From: Parvularcula mediterranea
Lineage (GTDB): Bacteria; Pseudomonadota; Alphaproteobacteria; Caulobacterales; Parvularculaceae
DNA: 64,000 nt
Direction of reading: 5' to 3'
Assembly (NCBI RefSeq): GCF_013085255.1
Contig: NZ_JABFCX010000003.1
Span: 939,288-1,003,287 of the forward strand
Positions within the stretch are counted from its first letter, which is position 1. Each line of letters begins with the position of its first letter. Below are positions 46,322 through 63,993 of the stretch, piece by piece. The notes under the pieces were generated by a model. It was not told the origin of the DNA, did not search any database, and saw only the letters and a program-made list of their open reading frames with translations. A program made the translations under genes and the position numbers.

Positions 46322-46327
46322 GCGGGC

Positions 46328-47981: not shown

Positions 47982-49187
47982 ATGGCATCACCGCGCGAAA
48001 ATCCTGCGCCACGGCTTGGCCGATGGCGGCCTGACCTTGCGTCGAGCCGGCTGATCGGCCCCGATGGCGAGGAGCGGAGGCTGGAGCCCAAGGTCGCCGA
48101 CCTTCTGGGCGCGCTTCTGGATGCGAACGGCGCCACTCTTTCCCGCGAGGATCTGTTCAGCGCTGTCTGGCCCGGCGTCACCGTCGGTGAGGACACGCTG
48201 AGCCGCGCGGTCTCGAAGCTCCGCAAGGCTCTCGATGACGATCCCAAAGCTTCTTCGCTAGTCATAACGGTTCCGAAACGAGGCTATCGGCTGGTCGCTT
48301 CTGAGGCCGCTCCCACTCCGCGTGCCCGGTGGCTCTGGCCGTCGGCCGCCCTTGCCAGCCTTTTGCTGCTGGCAGGGGTCGCCATCAACGCGACCAACCG
48401 GCCCGCGCCCGAACCATCGCCGACAGTCGAACGCGCCACGGACCGCTACATGGAATTCACCCGGGCCGGGAACGAAGCAGCGATCGAGCTCTACGCCCGC
48501 GCCCTCAGGGAGACAGGCTCCGATCCCAAAGCCGAGGCTGGCATGGCCGCCGCGCTCGTCCAAAGGGTGATCCGCTGGCCCGAAGCGGTCGGCCTCGATG
48601 AAGACGGCGCCACCTCCCTCGAAGCCGCGCTCGCCGCAGGGCTCACCGACAGCGCCGAGGCCAAGGCCGTTCTCGCCCAAGCGAGGAGCCTCGCAGAGAA
48701 ATCCGTGCGGCAGGACCCGCGCAACAGCGATGCGCTTCGGATCCTTGGCCTTGTGCGGACAGCGCAGCGCGATCTCGACGGAGCCTTCGAGGCCTATGAG
48801 AAGGCCCTCGACGCCGAGCCCGGAAACTGGGCGGTGCTGATCAACCTTTCTGAGATCCAGGCGATGCGCGGCAACAAAGCTGAGAGCTACCGGACGCTGA
48901 CCAAGGCCTATAACGCCATCGGCAATGCCTCGGGCCCTGAAGCCCAGCGTGCGGCACCGTGGCGGGCGCCCCTTGGGGTCCTGCTGGCGGAGCGGGACCT
49001 CGACGCGGGAAGGAACGAGGCCGCCGAGAGTTGGTACAAGCGGGTTCTCGAGGATGATCCCTTCGACCGAGGCGCAACCGAAGGTTTGGCGAGCTTGCTA
49101 CTCAGGTCAGGACGGGCATCCGAAGCGCGTGCGCTCTGCGCCGCGTACACTGAACGGACTGGAGACAGCCTGCCCTGCAGCCCCTAG
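47982..49187 (+). CDS. Winged-helix/TPR transmembrane regulator (CadC-like)
   Basis: The 401-residue protein has an OmpR/CadC-type winged-helix DNA-binding domain (about residues 9-108; KVADLLGALLDANGATLSREDLFSAVWPG near 30-58 and YRLV at the end), one membrane helix (about 116-132), then a periplasmic TPR-like domain (about 150-395, with EAYEKALDAEPGNWAVLINLSEIQAMRG). Such proteins sense outside signals and act directly on promoters. Its neighbour on the other strand, 154 bases away, is an S41 peptidase, a plausible target. It has no clear Shine-Dalgarno site and may be leaderless. Its stop overlaps the ThuA gene stop through CTAG (49184-49187). Confidence 0.85.
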   Translation: MASPRENPAPRLGRWRPDLASSRLIGPDGEERRLEPKVADLLGALLDANGATLSREDLFSAVWPGVTVGEDTLSRAVSKLRKALDDDPKASSLVITVPKRGYRLVASEAAPTPRARWLWPSAALASLLLLAGVAINATNRPAPEPSPTVERATDRYMEFTRAGNEAAIELYARALRETGSDPKAEAGMAAALVQRVIRWPEAVGLDEDGATSLEAALAAGLTDSAEAKAVLAQARSLAEKSVRQDPRNSDALRILGLVRTAQRDLDGAFEAYEKALDAEPGNWAVLINLSEIQAMRGNKAESYRTLTKAYNAIGNASGPEAQRAAPWRAPLGVLLAERDLDAGRNEAAESWYKRVLEDDPFDRGATEGLASLLLRSGRASEARALCAAYTERTGDSLPCSP

Positions 49188-50014
49188 CGGGCCGGGCAGC
49201 CGCCGCTTTCCTCGTCCGCCGTCACCCATGCGAGGGCATTCGTCAGAAGCCGCTTATGCTCCTCTGCCTCGAACGCTTGAGGCTGATGGCCGAGGGCTGA
49301 GAAGACGGTGCGACCCTTGCCGATGCAGCGGGTCCAGGCGACCGGGTGGTCCTTGGCTTCAGGGCCCATCACGAGGTCCTCGTCAGGCCAGACGCCACCC
49401 GCCACCTGTTTGTAGCTTCCTTCCACGACACCAATCAGCGGGGTGAAGTCCTCCCCCGGAGGCGCGGCAAAGGAGTACCACTCGTCATTGTGGACGAAGC
49501 TCTCTGGCAGTCCTTCCGTGACCGGGTGGTCAGAGAGCGTCTGCACCTCCGCATCCTGGAATTGCGGACCGATCGGGTGCCCTGAGAAGACCGCGCCGAT
49601 CACGTTCTCACGGTACCAGGGCCAGCTCTCTTGAGAGCCATCCCCCGCCCCGTGAAGGGCGATCAGCCCGCCGCCAGCCTCGAGCCAGTCCTGAAGCGCC
49701 ATCTCTTCGGCATCGGTCAGGACGTCTCCCGTCATGCTGTTGAGGACCACCACCTGAAAACGCGCAAGGTTCTCCGCCGTGAAGACCCTGCTGTCCTCGG
49801 TCGAGTGCACCGAAAAGCCCTCTTCCTCACCGAGACGGTTGAAGAACAGCATCGCCGCAGGAATGCCCGCCTCGTGCCGCCAGCCCTTCGTTTCGGAGAA
49901 CACCAGCACCGCCCGCTCGGACATGTACTCAGCGCTCCGCGGCCATTCATAGGCCCCGGCTTCGGGGTTGGTCTGGAAGGCAAGGGCTGCGAGCAGGAGA
50001 TGCGGAACGATCAT
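49184..50014 (-). CDS. ThuA-like domain protein, exported
   Basis: The 276-residue protein starts with a signal-like hydrophobic stretch (residues 1-13) and then matches the ThuA family, a class I glutamine amidotransferase-like fold. Typical signs are LVFSETKGWRHEAGI at the start, VLNSMTGDVLTDAEEMALQDWLEAGGGLIALHGAGDG in the middle and WTRCIGKGRTVFSALGHQPQAF near the end. ThuA occurs in trehalose and other sugar-use loci; its biochemical role is not settled. A Cys near the C-terminus could pair with the Cys in WTRC. Export suggests a periplasmic sugar role. Confidence 0.85.
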   Translation of the reverse strand: MIVPHLLLAALAFQTNPEAGAYEWPRSAEYMSERAVLVFSETKGWRHEAGIPAAMLFFNRLGEEEGFSVHSTEDSRVFTAENLARFQVVVLNSMTGDVLTDAEEMALQDWLEAGGGLIALHGAGDGSQESWPWYRENVIGAVFSGHPIGPQFQDAEVQTLSDHPVTEGLPESFVHNDEWYSFAAPPGEDFTPLIGVVEGSYKQVAGGVWPDEDLVMGPEAKDHPVAWTRCIGKGRTVFSALGHQPQAFEAEEHKRLLTNALAWVTADEESGGCPAR

Positions 50015-50050
50015 CCCCGCAGCGTCTCACGGACCCCGTCGCCTGCCAAC

Positions 50051-50077
50051 AAAAAGCCCGGCACGATGGCCGGGCTT
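50051..50077 (-). terminator. Rho-independent terminator of rpsD
   Basis: Read leftward, a perfect 9-bp stem (50069-50077 with 50054-50062, arm AAGCCCGGC) closes a 6-base loop and is followed by five T residues. It lies 26 bases after the rpsD stop codon. Confidence 0.92.
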
Positions 50078-50103
50078 CTGCAGTTCCTGTTTCGCTGCCG
50101 AAA

Positions 50104-50721
50104 TTACGAAGCGTAATACTCGACGACGAGGTTCGGTTCCATGGTGGCCGCGTAGGGCACTTCCGCGAACTCAGGGGTGCGGATGTAGGTCGCGGTCATC
50201 TTCTTCGGATCGACGTCGACATAGTCGGGGATGTCGCGCTCTGCGAGCTGCAGGGCTTCGAGGACGAGGGCCATGTTCTTGGACTTCTCGCGGATTTCGA
50301 CGACATCGCCGGGCTTCAGCCGGTAGGAAGGGATGTTGGTCCGGCGACCGTTGACCATGACATGGCCGTGGTTGACGAACTGACGCGCCGCGAAAACGGT
50401 CGGCACGAACTTGGCGCGGTAGACAATGGCGTCGAGACGGCTCTCGAGGAGGCCGATCAGGTTCTCTGCCGTGTTGCCCTTGCTCTTCGCAGCTTCGGTG
50501 TAGAGGCGCTCGAAGTGCTTCTCGGAGATGTTGCCGTAGTAGCCCTTGAGCTTCTGCTTCGCCATCAGCTGCTGACCGAAGTCAGAGACTTTACCGGCGC
50601 GGCGCTGGCCGTGCATGCCGGGCTTGTAGTCGCGCTTGTTGATGGGAGACTTGGGGCGACCCCAGATATTTTCACCGACGCGGCGGTCGATTTTGTACTT
50701 GGCGGAGATCCGCTTCGACAT
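50104..50721 (-). CDS. rpsD: 30S ribosomal protein S4
   Basis: S4 binds the 5' domain of 16S rRNA early in 30S assembly. The 205-residue protein starts [21 protein letters not shown], has the [16 protein letters not shown] segment and the S4 RNA-binding domain (about 95-160) with [31 protein letters not shown], and ends in [24 protein letters not shown]. The length is normal. It stands alone here rather than in the alpha operon (rpsM-rpsK-rpsD-rpoA-rplQ), which is usual in alphaproteobacteria. A perfect hairpin in its leader may be involved in control. Confidence 0.99.
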
Positions 50722-50747
50722 TTTTCACTCTCTTAGGCCCGGATCCG

Positions 50748-50770
50748 GTCTGCCGCCCCATGCGGCAGAC
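50748..50770 (-). promoter_or_regulatory. Perfect hairpin in the rpsD leader
   Basis: A 9-bp perfect stem (GTCTGCCGC 50748-50756 with GCGGCAGAC 50762-50770) closes a 5-base loop about 27 bases before the rpsD start, in a 139-bp gap shared with the amidase gene. S4 represses its own mRNA in other bacteria through leader structures, so this could be such a site; the sequence alone does not prove it. Confidence 0.45.
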
Positions 50771-50860
50771 GATCACAACGGCGGTTTCCCGGACGTCCCG
50801 TCTTGAAGCGCGGGTCAGTAGCAGTTCAGAAGGAGGGGTCAAGTCAAAGGAGACCTGAGG

Positions 50861-52498
50861 ATGAGGGCTTTGTGGATCGGTGTCGCTGCGGCGGCTCTTC
50901 TGGCAGCATGCGGCGAAGGACCGACGGGCGAAAGCTCCCCGGCGCCGACCCAGCAATCGGCACGCCAGGACTTCGCGGCAGCCCCTGACACGGCCTCCCT
51001 GCCCCAGCGCCTGAAAGATGGCGAGGTGAAGCCCGGCCAGGTCGTCGGCACCTACCTCCAGCGGATCGAGCTGATCGACCAGAGCGGGCCAACCCTGCAG
51101 TCTGTCATCGCCGTGAACCCCGAAGCCGTGGCCCAGGCCCGGGCGCTTGAGGAAGCCGTCGCCAGCGGCGAGGAGCCAGGCGCCCTTTACGGCCTGCCCA
51201 TCCTCGTGAAGGACAATATCGAGACCTTCGAGCTTCCCACCACCGCAGGCTCCCTCGCGCTCAAGGACAATAATACCGGCCGCGATGCCCCGGTCATCGC
51301 AAGGCTGCGGGACGCGGGCGCGATCATCCTTGGCAAAACGAACCTCTCCGAATGGGCCAACTTCCGCTCGTCACAATCGGTGAGCGGCTGGTCAGGCGTT
51401 GGCGGGCTCAGCCGTAACCCCCACGACCTCTCCCGCAACACCTGCGGCAGCTCGGCAGGCTCGGGCGCTGCCGTAGCGGCAGGCCTCGCATGGGGTGCTC
51501 TCGGTACCGAAACCAACGGCTCCGTGATCTGTCCCTCCGCCTCGAACGGTATTGTCGGGTTCAAGCCGACCGTCGGCCTCGTTTCGCGCTCTCTCGTCGT
51601 GCCCATCTCCCCGAGCCAGGACACGATCGGCCCGATGACCACCAGCGTCCGTGACGCCGCGATGATCCTGACCGCCATTGCAGGCACCGATGAACGCGAT
51701 GCCGCAACGGCAGAGGCTGATGATCGGAAGACGGATTATGTCGCCGGCCTCGAAGGGGCGAGCCTTGAGGGCATCCGCATCGGCGTCCTGCGCTGGGCCC
51801 AGTCCGACGACCCCCGCGAGCAGGCGGTCTTCGACGAGGCCCTCGCCCGCGCAGAGGCCGCAGGAGCGATCCTTGTCGACATCGACGAAGCCAATCTGAA
51901 CCTCTCGGGCGGCGATGCCTTCACCGTCCTGAAGGCCGAATTCAAGGAGAGCCTCAACGCCTATCTCGCCGAGGCCGCGCCTGAAGTTCAGACCCGCACC
52001 CTTGCCGACGTCATCGCGTTCAATGAGGCGAACGAGAAGGAAATGTCCGTGTTCGGACAGGACATCCTCATCGATTCAGAAGCGATGCCGGGCCTTGATG
52101 ACGAGGGCTATCGTACCGCTCTCTCCAATGCCCAGTCGGCCACTCGCGAGGGCGGCGTCGACCGGTTCCTCGAAGAGAACGACGTTCAGTTCCTCATTGC
52201 ACCAAGCTTTGGTCCTGCCTTCAAGATCGACCTCGTACGTGGAGACATCATCGCCAATTCGGCGGGCGCAGGTTGGGTCGCAGCCATTGCGGGCTACCCG
52301 CACCTGACCCTGCCCATGGGTGACGTCAGCGGCCTGCCGCTCGGCCTTTCCATCATGTCGGGCAAATGGATGGACGCGGAGGTTCTCGCCGTCGGCCAGG
52401 CGTTTGAGGAAATCCTCCCCCCACGTCTCATCCCGACGTTCCGCGCAAGCGAGATCGAGGCCGAAGGCTTCGCCGAAGCTGCAAGCCCGGCGCGCTGA
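50861..52498 (+). CDS. Amidase signature enzyme, lipoprotein
   Basis: The 545-residue protein has a lipoprotein signal with lipobox L-A-A-C (residues 14-17), then an amidase signature domain. The catalytic Lys lies in LPILVKDNIETF (about residue 112), the cis-Ser in GSSAGSGAAVAAG and the nucleophile Ser in TNGSVICPSASNG, about residues 197-235. These are the Ser-cisSer-Lys triad of the family that includes glutamyl-tRNA amidotransferase A, but the lipoprotein signal places it outside the cytoplasm, so it likely hydrolyses a small amide there. A GGAG site eight bases upstream supports the start. It reads toward the photolyase-like gene four bases later. Confidence 0.92.
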   Translation: MRALWIGVAAAALLAACGEGPTGESSPAPTQQSARQDFAAAPDTASLPQRLKDGEVKPGQVVGTYLQRIELIDQSGPTLQSVIAVNPEAVAQARALEEAVASGEEPGALYGLPILVKDNIETFELPTTAGSLALKDNNTGRDAPVIARLRDAGAIILGKTNLSEWANFRSSQSVSGWSGVGGLSRNPHDLSRNTCGSSAGSGAAVAAGLAWGALGTETNGSVICPSASNGIVGFKPTVGLVSRSLVVPISPSQDTIGPMTTSVRDAAMILTAIAGTDERDAATAEADDRKTDYVAGLEGASLEGIRIGVLRWAQSDDPREQAVFDEALARAEAAGAILVDIDEANLNLSGGDAFTVLKAEFKESLNAYLAEAAPEVQTRTLADVIAFNEANEKEMSVFGQDILIDSEAMPGLDDEGYRTALSNAQSATREGGVDRFLEENDVQFLIAPSFGPAFKIDLVRGDIIANSAGAGWVAAIAGYPHLTLPMGDVSGLPLGLSIMSGKWMDAEVLAVGQAFEEILPPRLIPTFRASEIEAEGFAEAASPAR

Positions 52499-52502
52499 TC
52501 CG

Positions 52503-53720
52503 ATGAGCAACGAGGACCTTGCCACACCCGAATTCTTCCCCGCGACACGGGAGACGGCGCTTCACCGCATGAACGCCTTCACCCAGAATATGGGAAAGAC
52601 CTATGCTTCCAAGCGCAACACGGATTTCGGACCAGAGAACCGCTTCAACGTCTCGTGTCTGTCTCCCTATCTCAGCCATCGCCTCCTCCTTGAGAAGGAT
52701 GTGGCCGAGGCGGCCATAGAAGCCCACGGTCTTCAAACTGCGGAGAAATTCGTTCAGGAAGTCTTCTGGCGGACCTACTTCAAAGGATGGCTTGAGCTCA
52801 GGCCTCACGTCTGGTCTCGCTATACCACAACAGCGAAGTCTGCGATCGAGGGTCTCTCCGGTGGACAGAAGGTAGCGTTCGAAGAAGCCACGGGTGGCAA
52901 GACAGGCATCGACTGTTTCGATCAGTGGACGCATGAACTGGTAGAGACCGGCTACCTGCATAATCATGCGCGCATGTGGTATGCCTCGATCTGGATCTTC
53001 ACCCTCAAACTGCCTTGGGTCCTTGGAGCAGATTTCTTCTACCGTCATCTGCTCGACGGCGATGCCGCATCGAACACCCTGTCATGGCGCTGGGTCGCGG
53101 GGCTTCACACCAAGGGCAAGAATTACGTCGCCCGCGCCGATAATATCGAGAAGCATACGGACGGCCGCTTCAATCCCGAAGGCAAGCTGGCCGAGGATCC
53201 TGCGCCCCTCGACGATGACTGGAACGGCGAAGCGGGACCTGCACCAACGATCACGCCCCTCGACAAAAGCCGCAAGGCGCTTCTCCTCCTGCACGAGGAT
53301 GATCTGGGTTTCGACAGCCTAGATCTCGGCGGGCTCGACGTCAGGGGTATCGCGGCCATCACCGTGACCGACAGCCGTTCCCCCTACGGAGCGTCGGAGC
53401 CCGTGAAGCAGTTCACGATCGAAGCCGTGGAAGATGCACTCAATCGCGCTGACGACGCGATGGATGCCGATGCCGTCAAGCTGCCAAGTCCCGAAGCGAT
53501 CCTTCAGCATGCGAAGGATATCGGCGCTGAACAGGTCGTCATGCCCTACATCCCGCAAGGGCCCGTCCGTGACAGGATCAACCAGGCCGCTTCAAGCTGG
53601 GAAAGTGAAGGCGTCAAGCGCGCAGAGATCCTGCGCCCTGAGGACAGCGCCGCATGGCCTCACTGCGCCAAGGGTTTCTTCAAGCTGAAGGAAAAGATCC
53701 CTTCACTGATCAAAGGCTAG
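52503..53720 (+). CDS. Photolyase-like FAD-binding protein with reversed domain order
   Basis: The 405-residue protein starts directly with the helical FAD-binding domain of the photolyase/cryptochrome family: RFNVSCLSPYLSHRLL near residue 42, FVQEVFWRTYFKGWLEL near 85, then LHNHARMWYASIWIFTLKLP and LLDGDAASNTLSWRWVAGL near 155-200. There is no N-terminal alpha/beta antenna domain; instead an alpha/beta-like region of about 140 residues follows (from LLLLHEDDLGF). It may therefore use FAD alone, and could be a permuted photolyase. DNA repair or light sensing is likely, not shown. The ATG lies four bases after the amidase stop, so they may share a transcript. Its stop overlaps the convergent flavoprotein gene through CTAG. 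Confidence 0.82.
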   Translation: MSNEDLATPEFFPATRETALHRMNAFTQNMGKTYASKRNTDFGPENRFNVSCLSPYLSHRLLLEKDVAEAAIEAHGLQTAEKFVQEVFWRTYFKGWLELRPHVWSRYTTTAKSAIEGLSGGQKVAFEEATGGKTGIDCFDQWTHELVETGYLHNHARMWYASIWIFTLKLPWVLGADFFYRHLLDGDAASNTLSWRWVAGLHTKGKNYVARADNIEKHTDGRFNPEGKLAEDPAPLDDDWNGEAGPAPTITPLDKSRKALLLLHEDDLGFDSLDLGGLDVRGIAAITVTDSRSPYGASEPVKQFTIEAVEDALNRADDAMDADAVKLPSPEAILQHAKDIGAEQVVMPYIPQGPVRDRINQAASSWESEGVKRAEILRPEDSAAWPHCAKGFFKLKEKIPSLIKG

Positions 53721-54691
53721 AGCTCCCTAGCGAGCTTTCTGCCAAGACGGTGGCCGCTGAGCCAGGCGGCTTCGATCCTCGGTGCGATATGCCAGTCGCC
53801 ACAGGTCGCGAACCCATCATCGAGGTCGAGCCCGAAATCGCCGGGCGCGGCCTCGGCCACCCGCGCATAGCGCCAGCGGTGGACCATGGTCAGCTCCGCA
53901 AGGCGTGGAAGACCCGGCACCATGGTGTGAAGCTCCTTCAGCAGCAAGTCGCTGACATCGTCGGGATCCGCCTCGAGATTTTCCCGCGAGAATGACGGCG
54001 ATCCATGAAGGACAAATCGGCTGCCTGGCTCCCTGCCAGGCCGACCGGCCTGCCAGACGAGCATGTCAGCGGGTCCTTCGCTCTTCATGTGAGCGTCGAA
54101 GCCCGGGTCATGCTCTCCGTTGAAGGCTGCAAGCAGCGTCCAGCACGGGTCGAAAGAAGCAGCAGCAGCTCCCGTCCTCAGGCCGCTGTCATCGGGAAGG
54201 AGCGCCAATGCCTGGGGCGCAGGCACAGCAAGGACCACGAAATCCGCGTCGGCGACCTGATGGCCACCCTTGGTGCTCAGGTCGAAGCGGCCGTCGCGCC
54301 CTTCTCCGGGCGTTCCGATCTCGACCCCGAACTCAGCCGAGAGCGCCTCGGCCTCATGGCGGACGAAGGCGTTCATGCCCGGCGTTCCGACGTACCAGGG
54401 CTCGCCGGGATCATGGCGCTCGCCATCCTTGAAAAACCGCCCGTCCCATGGAGCCACGCAACCCGCCGCCTGCCATCCTTCGACAGCCCCACGGAAAGCT
54501 TCGTCTCGCGCTGTGAAGTAAACCGCTCCGTGGTCGAACCTTCCGGGCGCTGTCCTGCGGGAGGAGCACCGTCCGCCAGGCCCACGGCCCTTGTCGATGA
54601 TCCGAACCTCGAAGCCGGCCTCGGATAGGACTCTTCCGCAGGCGAGGCCCGCGACCCCTGCTCCGATGATGGCAACGACTGATCCGGGCAT
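53717..54691 (-). CDS. NAD(P)/FAD-dependent amine oxidase-like (renalase-like) protein
   Basis: The 324-residue protein has an N-terminal FAD-binding loop AIIGAGVAGLACGRVL followed by the RIIDKGRGPGGRCSSRR segment (second acidic/Arg stretch) and FDHGAVYFTARDEAF, the pattern of renalase-like flavoproteins. The C-terminal GDWHIAPRIEAAWLSGHRLGRKL is the family's FAD-contacting end. Function is not known; such proteins occur near photolyase genes in several bacteria, and this one is convergent with a photolyase-like gene. The 3' ends overlap by four bases through CTAG (53717-53720). Confidence 0.86.
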   Translation of the reverse strand: MPGSVVAIIGAGVAGLACGRVLSEAGFEVRIIDKGRGPGGRCSSRRTAPGRFDHGAVYFTARDEAFRGAVEGWQAAGCVAPWDGRFFKDGERHDPGEPWYVGTPGMNAFVRHEAEALSAEFGVEIGTPGEGRDGRFDLSTKGGHQVADADFVVLAVPAPQALALLPDDSGLRTGAAAASFDPCWTLLAAFNGEHDPGFDAHMKSEGPADMLVWQAGRPGREPGSRFVLHGSPSFSRENLEADPDDVSDLLLKELHTMVPGLPRLAELTMVHRWRYARVAEAAPGDFGLDLDDGFATCGDWHIAPRIEAAWLSGHRLGRKLAREL

Positions 54692-54751: not shown

Positions 54752-55597
54752 CTAGAAGCGGTAAGGATGCCGCAAGCGCTGGACCAGAAGCGGAGTGTTC
54801 GAAGGCTGCATGTTAACGTTCCAGATCGGGTTCGGCCCGACCTGCGCCTCGAAGCGCTCTTCGGTAATCTTGTAGCCGTTGGCCTCGACGAGGATCCAGA
54901 GCTCCGACTCCGGCTCGATCGCGTCCACGGTCGTGACGATCCGCAGCTTGTTGTCGCGATAGCTGATCTCGGCACCGGAGTTGCGGAAGATGTTGTACCG
55001 GGTGTTGGTGTCCGGATTCCAAAGCTTGCCGACCAGCCGATTGCGCTTGACCATGCCCTGCAAGTTGCCCTCGAGACCGTTCGGGAAGTTGACCTGGATG
55101 CGGAGCTGATACTCCTGCTGGCCCGAGCGCTGAACCGCCACGGGGACGATCTGGTAGCTCATCTCCCCGCCCGAAAGGCTCGCAGGCTCGAACATGGAGT
55201 CGAACGCCTCGTCGGATTCGCGCATCTCCTGCGCCGGAGCCTGCAGCGGCGTGCCGAGATCCGAAGGCACAGCCGTCACGAGGGCCGACAGGACCAAGAA
55301 GCCCTGCGTAAACGCTCCGCGATAGGAGACGGGCTCGGTCACGAAAATGGAAAGCGCCCCGGCACCCATCAGAAGCAGCATTACACCGTAAAGCGGGATC
55401 GCATTGATACCCAAGAGGGTCGTCGCTTCTAGGAGCAGTCGATTGATGACATAGAGCGAGGAAGCTTCCTGCTGCTGCACGAGATCGACGATCACCGCGG
55501 AGCCGATGCCGATCGCCGAAGCGAGACCGAAACCCGTGATGTTCATCAGGCCGAAGTCGCGCGCGACCTGACTGCGCTTGCCGTCACCGTAGGACAT
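54752..55597 (-). CDS. Membrane-anchored protein of unknown function
   Basis: The 281-residue protein has three likely membrane helices in the first 110 residues (about 20-40, 50-75 and 85-105) and then a soluble, mainly beta-rich domain of about 160 residues with NIFRNSGAEISYRDNKLRIVTTVDAIEPESELWILVEANGYKI, ending in RLRHPYRF. I recognise no family. The ATG at 55597 follows a weak GGGA site; a TTG at 55612 is possible. It lies 69 bases after the SbcC-like gene on the same strand and might be read from that transcript, or from its own promoter. Confidence 0.65.
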   Translation of the reverse strand: MSYGDGKRSQVARDFGLMNITGFGLASAIGIGSAVIVDLVQQQEASSLYVINRLLLEATTLLGINAIPLYGVMLLLMGAGALSIFVTEPVSYRGAFTQGFLVLSALVTAVPSDLGTPLQAPAQEMRESDEAFDSMFEPASLSGGEMSYQIVPVAVQRSGQQEYQLRIQVNFPNGLEGNLQGMVKRNRLVGKLWNPDTNTRYNIFRNSGAEISYRDNKLRIVTTVDAIEPESELWILVEANGYKITEERFEAQVGPNPIWNVNMQPSNTPLLVQRLRHPYRF

Positions 55598-55666
55598 GTC
55601 CGAATTTCCCAACTACCCTTACCGAGAGCTTAACACAGAAGCGTGGGCAGACAATCGCCAAGCGAA

Positions 55667-58255
55667 TCAGTTTTCGGGAAAGGCCTCTGTTTCAAGGCGG
55701 TGCGCCCCGAGCTCATCGAAGACCTGCTCGTGACAGGAGAAAATGATGATCTGGGTCTCCTGCGCAAGCTCGTGGAGAAGGTCGAAGCTCACCTTGATCC
55801 GGTCATCGTCGGCGTAGCTCAGCGGGTCGTCGAGGATCAGGGGCATCGGCTCCCCCTGGCTTGCCGCAAGTTTCGCAAAACCGATCCGGGTCAGAAGCGC
55901 GAGCTGTTCTCGTGTCCCGCCTGACAGCTGGGCGTCGCCGAGAGCGAGCCCCTGTCGGTCAACGGCTTCCGGCCTCCATTCGCTATCGAAACGAAGAGCT
56001 TCGGCCCCCAGGAGACGTGCCGCCATCGGTCTGATGGTCGCCATCACTGGCTCGACCACCCGGTCGCGGCGCTGGGCTTCCTCGTCATCGATCAGGGTAA
56101 GCAGCATCCGCAGCGCCTTGCGCCGTTCTTCGAGCTGCTCCGCCCGCTGGGACGCAGCTTCGAGGAGTTCCACGGCCGCCGCTAACTGTTCTTCCGCCCC
56201 GTCAGCATCGAGAGCCCTCAGCTGACCGCGCTTCTGGGCCAGGTTTTCGCGCAAGGACGAAAGCTCCTGGCCGAGCTTCCGTTCGACCTCCTCGAGCCGT
56301 TTGAGCCTCGTGGTGGCCGCTTGGCCGGCGGCGACGTTCTTCTCGAGGGCTTCAAGCTCCGACGCCCGCGCACCGCGGGCTCGCTCGCCAGCGAGGACGG
56401 CGTCTTCCGCCGCGGCAAGCTTCCCAGCCCGCGCTGCCTCATCTCCAAGCTGACTGAGCAGCCGCTCGCAGTCTTTCTCGTTGGTGGCAGCGGCAAACTT
56501 CGCTTCGAGGGCCTTATCGCTCGCAGCCTTATGGAAAGCTTGCGCGCGTCGTTCATCGGCTGAGGCAGCGTCGAGAGCCGTCTTTGCTTCATCCAAAAGC
56601 GGTTCGATATCTTCTAGTCGCCGTAGGTCGCCTGCGGGCTGCTCGGCAGCCGCGAGCGTTTCCAGACGCGCCTCGATAGCCCCCAAGCCATCAGGCGCGA
56701 GGCGCTTCCTTTCGGCATCAAGACGTTTGAGGTCCGCTTCTGCCGCCTTGCGGGATCGCTCGATCTCAGCGGCGTCTTCAGCGTTCTTGGCCCCGGCCGC
56801 CGAAAGGAAGGCTGCAAGTTCCCCTTCGGCGGTTGCCCGGCTCCTGGCGAGATTTCCGCGGTCGGGAACGTCGACCGTAAGCCTCGTTCCCCCGATCTCG
56901 ATCGCTGCGCTGCCCGAGAGGGTCTGCCCCTCACCAGCCCTCAAATCCTCACCGTTCAGCGTTGCCGGACCGCCCTCCTCCAAGGTCAGGACCGGCGCTT
57001 CTGCCTCCTCCGCCGCTTTCGCACGGAGCACTGCAGTTTCGAGCTTTGCGAGCTGCGCCAAGTCGATGGCGGGAGCCTTCAAAACCTCCCGGAGGCGCTG
57101 CGCGTCCTTCATCACTGTATCGACGCGTTCCTTCGTCTCTCTCAGCCGCTCCGCTTCGGCCTGCTCCCGCTCCAAAGCTTCATTTCGGCGTGCCTCCGCG
57201 AACTCTCGGGAGAGCGTGTCGTGACGGGCCTGTTCCCCCTCACGCTTCTCGCTCGCAGCCTTCAGCGCAGCCTCGGTATGGCCAAGGTCATCCTGCACTG
57301 CTGTGAGCGCAGCCGCGGCCATACCCCGCGCTTTTTCCTTGCTTTCCAGCTCTTTCAGGCTCGCCTGCAGTTCAGTCTGCTTGTCCCGGGCCGTCTGGAG
57401 CGCGGCTTCGGCTGCGGCCAGCTGCTCGCGGGTATGGCTGGCTTTCTGGAGGTCGAGTTCGGCCTCTTTTGCGGCGAGACGGGCCTCGCGCAGCTCCTCG
57501 CGGCGGCGCTCCGTCTCCTTCGGCTCCGACAGGCGTGCCTCGCGCTTGGACAGACCTTCGACCTCGCTTCTGAGGTCGGAGCTGAGGCGCACCTTCTGTT
57601 CGAGCTCGGCGACGTCACTCTCCAAAGTGGAGACCGTCTTGAGAGCCGTCGCCATCTCGCCCGTCGCCTTCCCGGTCTTGAGGGTTTCCAGCTTCTGCAG
57701 CTCGGCTTCCGTCCGGCTGCGCACCCGTCCCACGTCACCGCCCATCGCGGCTTCGGTGACTTCCGACGAGAGAAGCCCGTCAGCGGTTTTGCGCTGCTCG
57801 CCTGAGAGGCCAGGAGCAAACCCTTCGCCCTGGGCCAGCCAGAGAAGACCGGGTGTCCCCTCAGTAGGAGACGCCGCGCCGAGCATCTCGGCGATCTTCG
57901 CAATCGCCGCGTCTTCCCGCGCGAGCTCGCGCAGCGTCGGCCGTTCGAGAAGCTGGGTCCCCGACCCCTTGCGGGAGCCCATGAAGTGCTTGCGAACCCG
58001 AAACGATCCCTGCTGGGAGGAAAGATCGATCTCGACCAACGGATCGCCACCCGCTTCGGGTTTCAGCGCCCGGGTCTCCCTGTTGTTGGCGGTCGGCTTG
58101 AAGAACAGACCCGCCCTCAAGGCATCGAAGAGCGCGCTCTTCCCGAACTCGTTGGGCCGGGCGAGGAGGTTGATGCCCGGCGCGAAATTCTCGATCGCGA
58201 GCCCTTTGGCACCGAACTTACGCAGATTGCGAACGCGGAGCGCTTCGATCTTCAT
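55667..58255 (-). CDS. SbcC/YhaN-like AAA ATPase
   Basis: The 862-residue protein is an ABC-type ATPase of the Rad50/SbcC/YhaN group. The N-terminal P-loop reads RPNEFGKS (about residues 34-41), with Arg where the first Gly or Ala of Walker A is usual. Two long coiled coils (about 180-400 and 480-740) flank a short mid-part without the C-x-x-C zinc hook of Rad50. The C-terminal end has the signature LSGGTREQ, Walker B with PLILDDPLSYADDDR and a His switch (IIFSCHE). With a metallophosphoesterase partner it should form a DNA end-processing complex. Its ATG lies three bases after the phosphoesterase stop, so the two are translated together. Confidence 0.86.
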   Translation of the reverse strand: MKIEALRVRNLRKFGAKGLAIENFAPGINLLARPNEFGKSALFDALRAGLFFKPTANNRETRALKPEAGGDPLVEIDLSSQQGSFRVRKHFMGSRKGSGTQLLERPTLRELAREDAAIAKIAEMLGAASPTEGTPGLLWLAQGEGFAPGLSGEQRKTADGLLSSEVTEAAMGGDVGRVRSRTEAELQKLETLKTGKATGEMATALKTVSTLESDVAELEQKVRLSSDLRSEVEGLSKREARLSEPKETERRREELREARLAAKEAELDLQKASHTREQLAAAEAALQTARDKQTELQASLKELESKEKARGMAAAALTAVQDDLGHTEAALKAASEKREGEQARHDTLSREFAEARRNEALEREQAEAERLRETKERVDTVMKDAQRLREVLKAPAIDLAQLAKLETAVLRAKAAEEAEAPVLTLEEGGPATLNGEDLRAGEGQTLSGSAAIEIGGTRLTVDVPDRGNLARSRATAEGELAAFLSAAGAKNAEDAAEIERSRKAAEADLKRLDAERKRLAPDGLGAIEARLETLAAAEQPAGDLRRLEDIEPLLDEAKTALDAASADERRAQAFHKAASDKALEAKFAAATNEKDCERLLSQLGDEAARAGKLAAAEDAVLAGERARGARASELEALEKNVAAGQAATTRLKRLEEVERKLGQELSSLRENLAQKRGQLRALDADGAEEQLAAAVELLEAASQRAEQLEERRKALRMLLTLIDDEEAQRRDRVVEPVMATIRPMAARLLGAEALRFDSEWRPEAVDRQGLALGDAQLSGGTREQLALLTRIGFAKLAASQGEPMPLILDDPLSYADDDRIKVSFDLLHELAQETQIIIFSCHEQVFDELGAHRLETEAFPEN

Positions 58256-58258
58256 CGG

Positions 58259-59344
58259 CTAGCTCCGCGCAAAGCTGTCGAGATAGCGCAGCGCCAGGGA
58301 TGCCTCGCTCTCCGGGCTGGCCGCGAGCCGCTCCGCGACATTGCGCAGGAGCCCGTCGCCCAAGAGCTCATCAAGGTCGCGCGCATCAGTCTCCACCGAC
58401 AATCCCTGATCTTTGAGACGCAGATAAGCCACCCGTGCCCTTTGCTCTTCGAGGAACCTGGTCAGAGCGCCGCTTTCTGAAAGGGAGAGGACACCGGAGA
58501 TCTCGAGCCGGACCAGTGTTCTGTCGAGGGCAGCATCAGCGGGGAAGATATCAGCCAGCTTCTGGACCGGGTCGTCACCTGGGAGGAAGGCAGCTTCCGC
58601 CATGCGCCAGCGGAACTGCGCCGTCGCGTGGCGCTGGGGAGCGTCGGGCTGGTCTGTGTCGACGATAAGCGCGTAGCCTTGGTTATTGTTTCGGAACCGG
58701 TCCGGTTCGGGCGTGCCGGAATAGAAGGTCCGCTCCCCTGCCCTTTTCATCCCGTGCCAGTCGCCGAGCGCGAGGTAACGGAGCCCCGCACGATCCGCGC
58801 GGTCCGGCGCGATCAGCATAGCGCTCTCAGCGTTTTCCTTGATGTCCTCGGTCCCGGCATGGGCGAGGCCGATACGAAGAGCCCCTTCCGGGGTCTCCAT
58901 CCTGTCGAGATCGGCACTCAGGTCACGGCCAGGCCTCTTCGTCGGCCAGGGCGCGGGGAGGACGAAGACGCCCTCCTCCAGCTGGTGCGGTCTCGCCTCA
59001 AGAAGAAGGTGTACATTTTCCGGCACGCCCATCTCCTGAAGGCGCTGCCACAGTCCCTCGGCGCCAGCAGGGTCGTGGTTCCCCGGCATGAGCCAGAACT
59101 GGAGGTCACTCGCCGCCCGCATCCGGTCGAGGGGTCGTCGCAGGCTCTGATCGGACGGCGCCATCTGGTCCCAGACGTCACCGGCGACGAGCACATGCGT
59201 GACGCCTTCCTCCCGCGCCAAAGCCGCCAGTGTCTCGATGATCGACAGCCGCGCATCCTTCAGCTGGCCCCTCAGTTCGGCATCGAAACGAGCGAAGGGG
59301 CGCCCCAGCTGCCAGTCAGCCGTATGGAGGAACCGGAAGCCCAT
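58259..59344 (-). CDS. SbcD/YhaO-like metallophosphoesterase
   Basis: The 361-residue protein has the calcineurin-like phosphoesterase order: FLHTADWQLGRPF (motif I, Gln where SbcD has the metal-binding His), VAGDVWDQ (motif II), MPGNHDPAG (motif III), a GLAHAGTED strand and ALGDWHGMKRAG (with Asp where SbcD has His in GHxH). These swaps are, from memory, typical of a bacterial DNA-repair exonuclease subfamily, so it may still be active. YSGTPEPDRF follows. The longer frame upstream is inside repA; the ATG at 59344 overlaps the repA stop by one base (TGATG) and is thus the likely start. Confidence 0.87.
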   Translation of the reverse strand: MGFRFLHTADWQLGRPFARFDAELRGQLKDARLSIIETLAALAREEGVTHVLVAGDVWDQMAPSDQSLRRPLDRMRAASDLQFWLMPGNHDPAGAEGLWQRLQEMGVPENVHLLLEARPHQLEEGVFVLPAPWPTKRPGRDLSADLDRMETPEGALRIGLAHAGTEDIKENAESAMLIAPDRADRAGLRYLALGDWHGMKRAGERTFYSGTPEPDRFRNNNQGYALIVDTDQPDAPQRHATAQFRWRMAEAAFLPGDDPVQKLADIFPADAALDRTLVRLEISGVLSLSESGALTRFLEEQRARVAYLRLKDQGLSVETDARDLDELLGDGLLRNVAERLAASPESEASLALRYLDSFARS

Positions 59345-60480
59345 CAGTTGGGCAGCGGGTTCCGCTTGGCGTAGGTGGAGAAGAAAGCGAGAAACGCAGC
59401 ATCGGGCCGACGTGGAGCTTCCTTGCCTTCGGCCCAGCGCTTCCACTCCTCGAGGACACCGTACTTGTCGTAGCCGGGGAAGAGCCGGCTCGCCTGCTCA
59501 AGTGCGTAAGAACTCACTTCGAGATCCGCGATCTCGGCAGGCTCCGCCACGGGCAGTGCCTTGGGCTGGGATGTCTGATCGGCAGGGAGCTTCACCTCCA
59601 CCCGCCGAGCGCTCGCCCGCGGCCTGCCCTTGGGCCGGAAGAGCACCATAGGATTGCGCTTCGAGATGGCTGAGCCAAACCCTGCGCTCGAAATCATCCG
59701 CGCGCCGTCAGAATGGGGATCATCGACCACCACCAGGTCATATTCAGGAATAGGCTGGCGCACTTCGATTTCGCGAAGGGCCGATTTGAACTTCGCCATG
59801 CGGTCTTCTGAGCCCACCTTCTTCTGGAGCTTCGCGAGCCCAATGTGGAAAAACCGCTGTTGCCCGCAATGCACCCGCGCCAACTCGTAGAGCCTGCGCT
59901 CAATCGGCGAAAGCTGAAAATAATTCGAGTCATAGGTCAGAATCTTCTGATCCTTGATAAGCGCGCGATAGAGCCAGTCGCATAAGCGGACTTTCACCCG
60001 GTTGAGACGTTTTCCACCGTCAGCCGTCTTCGTGTAGCTCATCTTGGCTTCCGAGACCCACGAGAAGAAGCCGTCCTCGCCCTCTCCGCCTGCCTCTATG
60101 TTTGTCTTGATCTGCGTGCCCTGCAGACGCTCGAGCGCGCCGTGGATCCGCTGGTAGCTGCGGGCTGAGCGGTTGCCGCCGATCACCCGGAGGAAGTCGT
60201 GGGCAGTGAAGCTATATTCCTGGCTCGGGGTCTGCTGGCTCTTCATCTGGCTGACGAGAAGGCTCGCGATATAGAGGAGGATCTCCTTGTCGTAGATCGT
60301 GGCGACCCCGGTCTGGCTGGGACGAACTTCGATCGAGACATAGTCGTCGGCGTAGGTGATGGGCTGCATGCGCCGGCCCTTCGAGAGCGCGAAGAACGGA
60401 AACGCCATCACTGAGCGCTCACCCTTCACCTGTCCGTGGAGGGGGCTATCGAGTTCCGCCAGTGTCATCTGCTCGGCCAT
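59344..60480 (-). CDS. repA: Replication initiator protein A (plasmid-type RepA)
   Basis: The 378-residue protein matches the RepA/'replication initiator protein A' family found on alphaproteobacterial plasmids. Typical parts are GERSVMAFPFFALSKG, YADDYVSIEVRPSQTGVATIYDKEILLYIASLL (residues about 45-76), GGNRSARSYQRIHGALERLQGTQIKT (a winged-helix like block) and LCDWLYRALIKDQKILTYDSNYFQLSPIERRLYELARVHCG. It should bind iterons in the non-coding region upstream. An AGGA site four bases before the ATG supports the start. It ends in a one-base overlap with the SbcD-like gene. Confidence 0.86.
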   Translation of the reverse strand: MAEQMTLAELDSPLHGQVKGERSVMAFPFFALSKGRRMQPITYADDYVSIEVRPSQTGVATIYDKEILLYIASLLVSQMKSQQTPSQEYSFTAHDFLRVIGGNRSARSYQRIHGALERLQGTQIKTNIEAGGEGEDGFFSWVSEAKMSYTKTADGGKRLNRVKVRLCDWLYRALIKDQKILTYDSNYFQLSPIERRLYELARVHCGQQRFFHIGLAKLQKKVGSEDRMAKFKSALREIEVRQPIPEYDLVVVDDPHSDGARMISSAGFGSAISKRNPMVLFRPKGRPRASARRVEVKLPADQTSQPKALPVAEPAEIADLEVSSYALEQASRLFPGYDKYGVLEEWKRWAEGKEAPRRPDAAFLAFFSTYAKRNPLPN

Positions 60481-61103
60481 CGCGTCCTGTCTCTTCTACC
60501 GCTCAAAGGTCTGGCATTCGCGCCAGCGCTCACAAGAGAGTCCACGATTCGCATTCGTGCCATCGGGGATTCATCCCCAATAGCACGAGGATTCTGCCCA
60601 AGGCCGAGGTGGGGACTCGGCGCAAGCCCGCAGAATGACTGGACTTCATGCTTTCAGGGACGGTCCATGGCCAGTGTTCGTGCTTTCAGGGTCGAATCGG
60701 CGGGTTTGTCCTCGTAAGCACGAAGCTACGAAAGCGGTCTCGATTCGTACTCCTGCGAATCGTCAGCTGCGTGCTGCTGCGGAATTTTGCCTGATTGACC
60801 AAAAACCCCAGCAAACCTCTGATTAGATGGGTTAGTAGTGTTTAAAGGGTTACTGTCGGTGTAAGCGATTGAAAAGGCACGGAAGAAACCGGTATCGCTT
60901 CCGTGAAAACACGACTCTCCGTCCCCAAAGTCACGATATCCTTGTCCGTGATGACACGAGCATGATGGTGCGAAAACACGAGTCCCACGAAGCAGACTGT
61001 CCCTGAAGACACGAGGAGACTCTGCGTCTCGAATCGTGTCCCTTGCGCCCGCTGCAGTTTCTGGCACTGTCCGGTAAAATCTGCAGCGCAGCGAGGTCAC
61101 CGA
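60481..61103. other. Predicted iteron-type origin of replication
   Basis: This 623-bp non-coding region between divergent repA and parA holds about ten degenerate 16-bp repeats with consensus GTCCCTGAARRCACGA. Plus-strand copies: 60573, 60708, 60899, 60921, 60944, 60966 (3' half only) and 60999 (perfect match). Minus-strand copies end at 60570, 60661 and 60693 (60646-60661 and 60678-60693 have one mismatch each). The copies at 60899-60999 start 22, 23, 22 and 33 bases apart, about two or three helical turns. Between the clusters, 60781-60860 is clearly AT-rich and could be the unwinding element. RepA is the likely binder. An 8-bp inverted repeat (61050-61057 with 61081-61088) lies in the parA leader. 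Confidence 0.72.
60555..60588. repeat. Palindromic iteron pair near repA
   Basis: The two outermost repeats of the origin region face each other (60555-60570 inverted, 60573-60588 direct) and form a 34-bp near-perfect palindrome with a 2-base centre. Outer bases are TCGTGC and GCACGA. It lies 74 bases upstream of the repA start, in the right place for autoregulation by a RepA dimer. Confidence 0.65.
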
Positions 61104-62294
61104 ATGGAACAACCGAAAGCACCGGGTGCCGCCACCTTGGAGACGATTAGCCACTTGGTGACCACCGCTGACGGCATTATCGGCTCGATGCGCGATGTCG
61201 CCGATGACCGGGTGGCCGAGACGGGCCCGCGGCGTTACCGGCTGACAGAGGCCGCGCAGCTGGTCGGACGGTCGGTTGATGCGATCCGCAGGGCAGAAGC
61301 GGCTGGCGACCTGCCCAAACCAACGCTTCGTTCCTCAGGTCAACGTGCTGGCTACAGCCTCGCGGAAGTGAACCGCATGCGTGACCATTTCGGAACGAGA
61401 CCCCAGCGGGCGCCTGACGATCCGCCCGTCATTCTTGCCGTCCAGAACTTCAAGGGCGGCGTTGGTAAGAGCACCATCTCCGCACATGCGGCGCAGTATT
61501 TCGCGGAGAAGGGCTATAGGGTCCTCATCGTTGACACGGACAGCCAGGCTTCGACGACGACGCTCTTTGGCTTCAACCCTGACGTTGATATCGAGACCGA
61601 GACCACGCTCCTGCCCTATCTTATTGCCGACCGGTCGGATGGCATTGGCTACGCCGTCAGGCCCACGAGGTGGGACGGTCTGGACCTCATTCCTGCCAAC
61701 CTCGGCCTTTACTCGGCGGAGTACATTCTCTCCCAGCAGGTGAAGGGTGACGTCTCGCGGCTTTCGCGGCTTAAGACCGGCCTCCTCGAGGCGGCTGCGA
61801 GCTACGATATCGTCGTGATCGATCCACCCCCTGCCCTAGGCATGATCTCGCTTTCGGTGCTTCAGGCTGCGAGTGCCATCCTCATTCCGACACCGCCGAG
61901 CTCAATCGATTTCGCTTCCACGGCTGCCTATCTCGCCATGCTCGAGGAGGTCGTCGAGGCGCTGAACACCCAGACCCAGTCACCTGTCGAGTACAGCTTC
62001 GTCACCCTGCTTGCCACCAAGGTCGTGGAGCAGAAAGGCGCTCACGAGGTCATGCGCGATGTTATGGGACGCGCCTTCTCGGGCTCTATCCTTCCGACGG
62101 CCCTCCTCGATTCCGCTGAGTTTGACACGGCGTCTGTTGAGATGCGTACCGTCTTCGAAGCTTCTGGCGGTCAGTCGCGCACAGCCCGTCGCTGCCGGAA
62201 CAATCTCCTTGCCGTCATGGGGGATCTTGAACGCAAAGTCCGTGAGACCTGGCCAAGCCACCGGACAAAATTGCGCGCGGAGGGAATCGCGTAA
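61104..62294 (+). CDS. parA: ParA partition ATPase (type Ia)
   Basis: ParA moves replicons apart by ATP-dependent patterning on the nucleoid. The 396-residue protein has a helix-turn-helix N-terminal region (about residues 40-95, YRLTEAAQLVGRSVDAIRRAEAAGDLPKPT), which marks type Ia plasmid ParA proteins that repress their own operon, followed by the deviant Walker A KGGVGKST (117-124), IVDTDSQAS, and a VVIDPPPALGMISLSVLQ segment. A GAGG site seven bases upstream supports the start. It is divergent from repA and followed by parB after 68 bases. Confidence 0.94.
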   Translation: MEQPKAPGAATLETISHLVTTADGIIGSMRDVADDRVAETGPRRYRLTEAAQLVGRSVDAIRRAEAAGDLPKPTLRSSGQRAGYSLAEVNRMRDHFGTRPQRAPDDPPVILAVQNFKGGVGKSTISAHAAQYFAEKGYRVLIVDTDSQASTTTLFGFNPDVDIETETTLLPYLIADRSDGIGYAVRPTRWDGLDLIPANLGLYSAEYILSQQVKGDVSRLSRLKTGLLEAAASYDIVVIDPPPALGMISLSVLQAASAILIPTPPSSIDFASTAAYLAMLEEVVEALNTQTQSPVEYSFVTLLATKVVEQKGAHEVMRDVMGRAFSGSILPTALLDSAEFDTASVEMRTVFEASGGQSRTARRCRNNLLAVMGDLERKVRETWPSHRTKLRAEGIA

Positions 62295-62362: not shown

Positions 62363-63313
62363 ATGGCCCGTAAACGCGCCCGCATTCTCGCCGACGCCAT
62401 CAATGCCCGCCTCGAAAACACGGAAAAGCCCGAGGCTCCAAGACGCGAATACACTGCTGAGCGCGAGAGCCTAATCTCCGAAGCGTCGGACGGCCGGCTC
62501 AAGAACGGGAAGCTCAGGCTCGTTGATCCCAAAGAGTGCCGGATGTGGGAGGGCCACAACCGTCTCTATGATCTCCTGACGCCGGAAAGCTGCTCTGACC
62601 TCATCAAATCCATCAAGGCGGTGGGCCGTCAGGAGATGCCTGCGATTGTCCGGCCGGTGCAGGGAGAAAGCTACCAGTACGAAGTGATCTGCGGCGCGCG
62701 ACGACACTTCGCGATCAGCCACCTCCGCGAAGCCGAGCACCGCACCGACATTCTCTACCTTGTCGATATTCGTGACATCACGGACGAAGAGGCCTTCAGA
62801 CTATCCGATCTCGAGAACCGGGAGAGGGAAGACATCTCCGATTTCGAGCGGAGCAGGGACTATGGACGTGCGCTGACTGCCTACTATGACGACAACAAGG
62901 CACTCATGGCGGAGCGCATTGGCGTCGAACGGACTTGGCTCAGCCGCTACCTGCGGATCGGGGAGCTGCCTGCGGCGATCCTCGATGCCTATGGCGATGT
63001 ACGCGGTATTGGCATCCGCCATGCCGCTGAATTGTCTCCGCTTTTGGCATCCGATGCGCGATCTGCCGTTCTTGCTGAGGCGTCCCGAATTGCGGAGGAG
63101 GGCGGCGAAAGAAGTCCTGCTAAAGTGCTCGCGGCTCTCAAAGGCGCTGCGAAGGCGCCCAAGGAGAAGGACGTTCAGACCTTCTTCGATGGTGAGGGCA
63201 GGACGCTCCTTTCGTCTGAGACCCGCGCCCGGACGAAAGTGCTGACCATACCCCGGGCGAAGCTCAAGGACCGCGAGGCGCTCCTCAAAGCAATCGAAGA
63301 AGCGCTCTTCTAA
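62363..63313 (+). CDS. parB: ParB partition protein
   Basis: ParB binds parS and spreads along DNA. The 316-residue protein has the ParB/Srx nuclease-like fold start (RLYDLLTPESCSDLIKSIKAVGRQEMPAIVRP), the CTP-binding box GARRHFAI (in place of the usual GERRxRA), a helix-turn-helix region (about 175-230, MAERIGVERTWLSRYLRIGELPAAILDAYG) and a C-terminal part ending KLKDREALLKAIEEALF. It lies 68 bases after parA, with the palindrome pair in between. Its stop overlaps the stop of the convergent winged-helix gene by four bases. Confidence 0.92.
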   Translation: MARKRARILADAINARLENTEKPEAPRREYTAERESLISEASDGRLKNGKLRLVDPKECRMWEGHNRLYDLLTPESCSDLIKSIKAVGRQEMPAIVRPVQGESYQYEVICGARRHFAISHLREAEHRTDILYLVDIRDITDEEAFRLSDLENREREDISDFERSRDYGRALTAYYDDNKALMAERIGVERTWLSRYLRIGELPAAILDAYGDVRGIGIRHAAELSPLLASDARSAVLAEASRIAEEGGERSPAKVLAALKGAAKAPKEKDVQTFFDGEGRTLLSSETRARTKVLTIPRAKLKDREALLKAIEEALF

Positions 63314-63993
63314 GCGTCGTCCAGCCGAGCGGTCTTGTCGAGGGCGGCGTAAGCGTTCTCCAAGACCCGATCGATTTCCGACATATCCACAAGCTCTCGC
63401 GCCGGTTCGTTCTTCGTGATTTCGGGGACAACCGGCGCAGGCACATTTGCGGCGAGGTAGATCAGCCAGCGCTGCCGCGCCGTTGCGCGCTTCACAATCC
63501 CAAGGCTCTCGAGGCGCTTCAGGAGGCGCGCTGAGGCCTGGCGTGTCAGTCCTAAAGCATCACCGACATAGCGAGGGGTCAGCGCATGAGCCGTCCCTAA
63601 AAGCACGACCGCATCCCCAAGCCGGCTGTCTGAGCGGGCAGGGGGAAGTAGCGACCGCCATCTTCCAAAGTCCCGCTCGATGGACCTGAGGCGCTCATGA
63701 GCGCCCTCAAGCTCCTCGATAAGAGCAGGAACGAAGGCCATCTCCCAGCTTTCATGCCCCTCAGGCGGTAGCGCCAGCGCGGCAGAGGGCAGGGGCCAGA
63801 GGCTTGCGGCAGCGAGCCTAAGCGGTGTCTCAAGGGCGAGGTCTCCAGGAGGAAGGCCCTCCTCGGAGAGATGCCGGAGGCGATTCGTGATTTCGGGGAC
63901 AGTTGCCGATGGCTCCATCGCCACCCGCGGCGACCAGAGCCGAAGCGCCTGGGTCCAGAAGCGCCTCGCTGCTGCCTCTTCGACCGACGGCAT
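63310..63993 (-). CDS. Winged-helix (DUF1612-like) protein, possibly partial
   Basis: The 227-residue protein has an N-terminal part that is helical and Leu/Ala-rich, and a C-terminal winged-helix domain (about residues 130-180: TAHALTPRYVGDALGLTRQASARLLKRLESLGIVKRATARQRWLIY). It resembles the plasmid-associated DUF1612/RHE_PE00001-type proteins, but I am not certain. The first ATG is at 63993; only two complete codons of frame lie further up in this window, so the true start could lie beyond its end. It is convergent with parB and overlaps it by four bases. A role in copy control or partition is a guess from position. Confidence 0.6.
   Translation of the reverse strand: MPSVEEAAARRFWTQALRLWSPRVAMEPSATVPEITNRLRHLSEEGLPPGDLALETPLRLAAASLWPLPSAALALPPEGHESWEMAFVPALIEELEGAHERLRSIERDFGRWRSLLPPARSDSRLGDAVVLLGTAHALTPRYVGDALGLTRQASARLLKRLESLGIVKRATARQRWLIYLAANVPAPVVPEITKNEPARELVDMSEIDRVLENAYAALDKTARLDDA

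Follow-up and report, generated by a model that had tools for sequence, protein, structure and literature searches.

The window analysed here, a 64,000-nucleotide stretch at positions 939288-1003287 of contig C2 in the three-contig genome of Parvularcula mediterranea (G000), contains a plasmid-type replication initiator gene, repA, with an SbcCD-like gene pair (sbcD and sbcC, together sbcDC) directly behind it and divergent partition genes, parA and parB, on its other side. Judged from its sequence features, the repA-parAB locus probably serves a second chromosome (chromid) of ~1.36 Mb as its origin. The sbcDC pair most likely encodes the only Mre11-Rad50-like complex of the cell, one that joined the initiator's operon by capture and acts on the whole genome. 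As a whole, this reading of the locus as the origin and partition core of a chromid, with a pair captured behind repA that works on the entire genome, seems to us rather probable; a chromid-specific or defence role of the pair is possible.

An initiator gene joined to an SbcCD-like pair

The five central genes are the following.

59344..60480, minus strand: repA, plasmid-type replication initiator (Pfam RPA, PF10134; 378 amino acids), with orthologues 74-88% identical in five other genomes of the genus
58259..59344, minus strand: sbcD-like metallophosphoesterase (361 amino acids), its start codon overlapping the repA stop, its AlphaFold model matching Mre11/SbcD
55667..58255, minus strand: sbcC/rad50-like ABC ATPase (862 amino acids), without a CxxC hook
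61104..62294, plus strand: parA of the replicon (profile match)
62363..63313, plus strand: parB of the replicon (profile match)

The three minus-strand reading frames are all open and lie head to tail. The repA stop codon TGA occupies 59346-59344 and the sbcD ATG 59344-59342, sharing the last base of the stop, and sbcD ends at 58259, followed by the sbcC ATG at 58255-58253. An earlier note on this DNA had described the first junction as a fused TGATG and the second as a gap of three bases, and both can be read in the sequence. From this spacing we infer that the trio shares a transcript; a four-base gene overlap is by itself frequent in bacterial operons. A promoter scan of 55400-61200 found no sigma-70-like site, although a sigma-70 model says little for such an organism. 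RepA matches Pfam RPA over its full length (E 3.9e-65, 220 bits, cut-off 27).

The SbcD-like protein matches Pfam Metallophos and scores 52.4 bits against the NCBIfam sbcd model TIGR00619, below the cut-off of 77.65 bits that is passed in none of the ten genus genomes. The ATPase matches SMC_N below cut-off, AAA_23 just over it and Rad50 models weakly, and it also matches Rad50 structures. With the AlphaFold model of the SbcD-like protein (mean predicted local distance difference test score 87.6), the top Foldseek matches are Mre11:Rad50 (3qg5) and Escherichia coli SbcCD (7yzo), at E ~1e-12 and a template-modelling score of ~0.57; searches of PDB sequences with SbcD and RepA gave no match. Among what we take to be the SbcD nuclease motifs (GDxxD, GNHD, DxH and GHxH), GDxxD, GNHD and the histidine of the fourth are conserved in 85/85 homologues, and DxQ stands in place of DxH and GDWH in place of GHxH in all six genus proteins and 79/79 others. 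Because the patterns used to retrieve these 79 outside homologues include the scored motifs, counts among them are biased, and the six genus proteins provide the unbiased count. All 82 SbcC-like proteins scored (three short rows of 85 were dropped) keep the lysine-serine of Walker A and the residues of the signature and Walker B motifs, and the CxxC zinc hook is present in one of the 82 and in none of the six from the genus. In a tree of SbcD proteins thinned to 42 of 85 rows, those of the genus cluster together with support 96 and have long branches. Because the fold and most motifs of SbcCD and Mre11-Rad50 are kept (GDxxD, GNHD, Walker A and B, signature), whereas DxQ and GDWH replace the usual residues, the hook is lacking in the genus and the NCBIfam score is below cut-off, the pair on these sequence criteria is a distinct SbcCD-like subfamily, with putative nuclease activity.

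A candidate origin on a 1.36-Mb replicon

The 623-base gap between repA and parA, from which parA-parB are transcribed opposite to repA, together with the sequence beyond it, contains the following predicted sites.

60481..61103, no strand assigned: probable replication origin, with iterons (consensus about TCCCTGAAAGCACGA), some at a spacing of 22 bases, inverted copies and 12 GANTC sites
60898..61016, plus strand: main direct iteron array, with sites at 60898, 60920, 60943, 60965 (weak) and 60998
60553..60725, both strands: repA-proximal iteron-like sites at 60553, 60572, 60644, 60676 and 60707
62768..63901, no strand assigned: dispersed iteron-like sites in parB and the next gene, at 62768, 63412, 63592 and 63883, and beyond the window at 64258 and 65123

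The iterons, whose consensus is approximate, are common to all six genus genomes that carry this repA, with matching spacing of ~22 bases in the main array. Scored with a matrix built without G000, 14 sites of at least 18 bits fall between 60553 and 65123, within 4.6 kb, and the other 857,445 bases of G000 that were sampled contain none; at 16 bits, the counts are 15 against 3 elsewhere in the sampled genome. Six of the 14 sites lie past parA, in parB and beyond. Strong iteron-like sites in parB, the adjacent MarR-like gene and beyond also occur in G052, G054 and G056. Such dispersed sites may titrate or handcuff RepA.

GANTC, the site of CcrM, occurs 12 times in the gap, the highest count among 834 counting windows, and the GANTC peak coincides with the origin in each of the other five genus loci (9 to 16 per 623 bases). 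A CcrM-type gene with a RAMA-domain match lies on contig C1. In the 650 bases upstream of repA at seven plasmid loci with an RPA-type initiator (an eighth region, with repA at the record's start, being omitted), the counts were 6, 5, 8, 1, 2, 0 and 1. The region 45356-54129 of the 1.18-Mb record NZ_CP030127.1 of Indioceanicola profundi contains an RPA repA, and GANTC peaks at 12 per 623 bases no more than ~1 kb upstream of it; the record is possibly another RPA-type chromid. Sections of PMC6090056 and PMC11514494 describe RepABC origins as GANTC-rich and report an effect of CcrM levels on initiation at the ori2 of Agrobacterium. In the mechanism that we propose, RepA would bind the iterons between repA and parA, open the origin and start replication, the dispersed extra iterons and CcrM methylation of the clustered GANTC sites would probably limit firing to once per cycle, and ParAB would segregate C2.

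The contig itself has the makings of a chromid. The last 5,756 bases of C2 (1,367,241 bases) repeat its start at 100% identity, and the end of C1 (1,726,715 bases) has a 144-base tandem repeat matching the C1 start; no end matches between C1 and C2 were found. The remaining contig, C3, measures 120 kb. C2 carries dnaA-dnaN, the genome's only rpsD match and the one close carB match, and C1 carries rho, mnmE, mnmG, rsmG, a parA-like gene and parB in an arrangement kept in G051 and G055. As dnaA, rpsD and carB lie on a single contig in G050 and G057, these are core genes that are chromosomal in other species. The GC content of C2 is near that of the chromosome (62.3% against 62.9% for C1, in samples), so that C2 combines plasmid-type replication and partition genes with core genes and chromosome-like base composition, three of the features by which chromids are recognized. 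A search of G000 for rRNA gave no match, so rRNA could not be placed on a contig.

The position of dnaA varies among relatives: it is likewise on the repA contig in G052 (1,080,651 bases, beside another contig of 1,695,218 bases), on a contig separate from repA in G054 and G056, the more fragmented assemblies, and on the contig of the chromosomal parA in G051. The G000 DnaA (C2:1253131-1254567) is 59-60% identical to those of G051 and G055 and 37-44% to those of G050, G053, G057 and G058, to which CarB is 77-78% identical, far above DnaA; its NCBIfam DnaA score, 293.8 bits, is under the cut-off of 343.9. A ParA encoded at C3:3705-4862 is 57% identical to that of C2, with similar paralogues in G051, G052, G054 and G056, and C3 has no RPA match.

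GC skew changes sign at the locus. In 4-kb steps it is negative before the repA-parA gap (15/16 steps) and positive after it, and over 713,426 sampled bases of C2 the best origin lies at 995 kb, with repA-parA at 1,000 kb; by permutation, p is 0.0008 at that site and 0.0125 across all sites, and 0.0024 when the nearest 100 kb are omitted. Because of the iterons, the GANTC cluster, the self-overlapping contig, the core genes and the skew sign change, repA-parAB is probably a chromid origin. That it is instead a plasmid integrated into a single chromosome is less likely, as the contig ends match only themselves. In sampled synteny against G057 (24 mapped rows), C1- and C2-type genes are interleaved on its single contig, and rearrangement is too great for a split or a fusion to be named. 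By title or abstract start, the open-access literature searched showed no chromid or second chromosome in Parvularcula or Parvularculaceae, and the sections available of PMC7179689 and PMC3927591 report no chromid in Parvularcula.

Occurrence of the pair with and without repA

We compared ten genomes of the genus (G000 and G050-G058), calling SbcD presence at E 0.001. Three neighbouring genes define the setting.

63310..63993, minus strand: gene next to parB that weakly matches MarR/DUF1403, kept in 4/4 genomes with the trio
54752..55612, minus strand: conserved gene without a Pfam match, directly downstream of sbcC; it adjoins rpsD in G050, G053 and G057, all without this repA
50104..50721, minus strand: rpsD (30S ribosomal protein S4), a single match in the genome and the marker of the conserved setting

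The order rpsD - ... - sbcC - sbcD - repA / parA - parB - MarR-like is the same in four of the ten genomes (G000, G052, G054 and G056). The repA/sbcD junction is TGATG in three of these and a 5-base gap in G056; sbcD and sbcC are separated by three bases in three and overlap in G054. Identity to G000 among them is 82.5-87.7% for RepA, 88-92% for ParA, 48-53% for SbcD and ~35% for SbcC. On these alignments, order and close spacing kept in 4/4 genomes with repA near rpsD are beyond chance.

Two further genomes, G051 and G055, have the orthologous repA-parAB (RepA and ParA ~74% identical), iterons and GANTC cluster without an adjoining pair, which sits on another contig, the one holding the chromosomal parA region. 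These two genomes rule out strict coupling of repA and sbcDC. Because they carry the pair elsewhere, coupling in cis is not required, and its place on the chromosomal-parA contig indicates that it can serve in trans. The coupling of an initiator to an end-processing complex proposed in the earlier note therefore stands in part: the arrangement is conserved in four species, with iterons and parAB beside repA, but is absent beside the orthologous repA of G051 and G055. Such genomes, with the same repA and no adjoining pair, had been named beforehand as evidence against it; what survives is a looser link, in that an SbcD-like gene is found in 6/6 genus genomes with this repA and in 0/4 without it. 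In G050, G053, G057 and G058 we detected neither this repA-parA nor an SbcD match; G058, a highly contaminated assembly, has four RPA matches of another subtype and is counted among the four.

Beyond the genus we looked at named genomes and at plasmids. Among the 80 nearest SbcD loci in named genomes, with their flanks fetched, one has repA, a Parvularculaceae metagenome contig (L047), and none of the other 79 has a detectable repA of this kind, at least 16 of these flanks being incomplete. In 72,556 plasmid records SbcD matches 132 and RepA 1,190; RepA identity reaches 58% among the 40 listed of the 1,190, one record falls in the 60-80% band, and 39 of the 40 listed records measure 33-355 kb, the other 1.18 Mb. 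Eight plasmid regions with RPA, fetched with 4-kb flanks (one ending at the record's start), contained neither SbcD nor SbcC. Eight plasmid regions with SbcD were read; in one of them, from Croceibacterium atlanticum, an RPA repA 28% identical to that of G000 is located 1.7 kb from the pair in opposite orientation.

Competing accounts of the pair, and related systems

Several observations weigh against the proposed reading. Both end overlaps lie inside repeats, a 3,468-base direct duplication that spans the C2 ends and the 144-base tandem repeat of C1, so that two circular contigs are no more than likely; these repeats may explain the assembly break points. Overlaps between contig ends in G051, G052, G054 and G055 give no decisive sign of circles either. 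The skew is weak: taken in 50-kb bins, that of C2 has its best site at 1,010 kb with p 0.135. Gene orientation and third-position skew, both derived from crude gene calls, have their maxima at 755 and 160 kb, away from repA. For C1 the best skew site is at 760 kb (p 0.16), with the parAB region within the 90% zone. The 9-kb origin flanks show the expected sign flip in two of six genomes (G000 and G056) and not in G052, G054, G051 or G055; over 20-kb stretches, G054 and G055 have the expected sign, and G052 and G051 give a mixed picture. The pattern of 6/6 against 0/4 may reflect one or two evolutionary events: a CarB+RpsD species tree gives p 0.060 in the approximately unbiased test against one clade of the six repA genomes. 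With DnaA added the six group together at support 57/41, and DnaA alone groups them at 76 (the CarB and joint trees omit G058, whose sequence is broken). Finally, SbcD has matches at E 0.001 or better in 11 of 62 genomes of the wider family Parvularculaceae. Five of the 11 lie outside the genus, and the matches are strong in two of these five (G035 and G020), neither with an RPA match. The G020 relative (G020:C8:102973-104027) is split over two adjoining pieces and is perhaps a broken gene.

Under one competing account, the pair works in cis: it would take part in firing of this replicon's origin, in fork repair there or in copy control, and would for that reason be co-expressed with RepA. The tight arrangement of the four rpsD-linked genomes, kept while SbcC fell to ~35% identity, and the tracking of this repA by SbcD would fit such a role. 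G051 and G055, which retain repA-parAB, the iterons and the GANTC cluster with the pair elsewhere, speak against it, as do the 79 SbcD loci and eight RPA plasmid regions without the combination in their fetched flanks, and we consider it improbable. The earlier note had suggested just these functions, and no test that we ran ties the pair specifically to any of them.

Equally improbable, in our estimate, is that the pair is a passenger: an accessory common on alphaproteobacterial replicons that landed behind repA by rearrangement, harmless or weakly useful there and with no functional link. The pair is indeed widespread without such a repA, SbcD matches the 132 plasmid records, and in Croceibacterium the pair lies near an RPA repA in opposite orientation; the pair also diverges far more than its neighbours. 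Yet all six genus genomes have kept its reading frames open, its ATPase motifs intact and most of its nuclease motifs as well, and the linkage has outlived long divergence.

A defence role is the least probable of the three. The pair would be an SMC-like nuclease system against foreign plasmids or phages, carried by the replicon for self-protection, and its fast divergence would fit an arms race. The ATPase matches part of the PADLOC profile of LmuB (5e-17), a component of Lamassu, which in the sections available of PMC10586767 is an SMC-like system acting against plasmids and phages. However, PADLOC scans of the pair and seven neighbours returned no LmuA-type partner or effector and only weak partial matches, and the SbcD-like protein, which has no PADLOC match, has the fold of Mre11/SbcD, so that the partner here is Mre11-like. 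Plasmid settings are divided. In two sphingomonad plasmids of one replicon type (L290 and L295), the pair lies behind a TM0106 RecB-like nuclease gene, near HEPN, DUF3883 and WYL genes, in a defence-like cassette, and in a Methylocystis plasmid it lies near Fic and SIR2 genes, but five of the eight settings have no such cassette, one of the five having a ParDE toxin-antitoxin pair.

We think that the trio represents operon capture at a second-chromosome origin, with the pair serving the whole genome, and that a replicon-specific role, passenger status and defence are the alternatives, each at the strength given above. What sbcDC does we infer throughout from sequence. The pair would encode the cell's only detectable Mre11-Rad50-like complex and would have come to sit behind repA in the ancestor of the four species. 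This complex most likely has no part in initiation and deals with DNA ends, hairpins and replication leftovers across the genome. The need for it would plausibly be raised by a second origin and terminus, and its position behind repA means that its dose probably follows the initiator's. A bolder version, which we regard as unlikely if slightly less so than the cis and passenger accounts, is a split genome in which ~40% of the sequence, dnaA-dnaN among it, came under a plasmid-type RepA origin. Production of a dedicated Mre11-Rad50-like complex would then be matched to that of the initiator and would preserve the second chromosome, the genus keeping an SbcCD-like complex only with this replicon.

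The locus has partial parallels in known systems. Chromosome 2 of Vibrio cholerae, with its initiator RctB, and P1-like iteron plasmids similarly combine an iteron array, extra dispersed sites and methylation sites at the origin, but their initiators belong to another family and the methylated site is GATC rather than GANTC; in the present locus the dispersed sites lie in parB and beyond. Plasmids with RPA-type RepA, mostly from sphingomonads among those listed, share the initiator family but are mostly far smaller, with no sbcDC in the eight regions fetched. RepABC chromids of Alphaproteobacteria, such as Agrobacterium Ch2, have in common with C2 a plasmid-type origin, adjacent partition genes, a large replicon with core genes and a GANTC-rich origin, as described in sections of PMC6090056 and PMC11514494. 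They differ in having RepC, with the origin inside its gene, rather than an RPA-type initiator with iterons outside repA, and in having partition genes in the initiator's operon, where here these are divergent from repA and sbcDC follows it. By title or abstract start, no such coupling appeared in the open-access literature searched for YhaO/YhaN and for SbcCD together with RepA or iterons.

If the proposed reading is true, the initiator gene of the main chromosome sits on a replicon fired by a plasmid initiator, and each chromosome would therefore depend on the other. Sister species that have a single contig and lack this repA would then be a natural comparison for genome splitting or fusing, and the repA-sbcDC operon would offer a testable case of whether two chromosomes raise the need for end-processing capacity.

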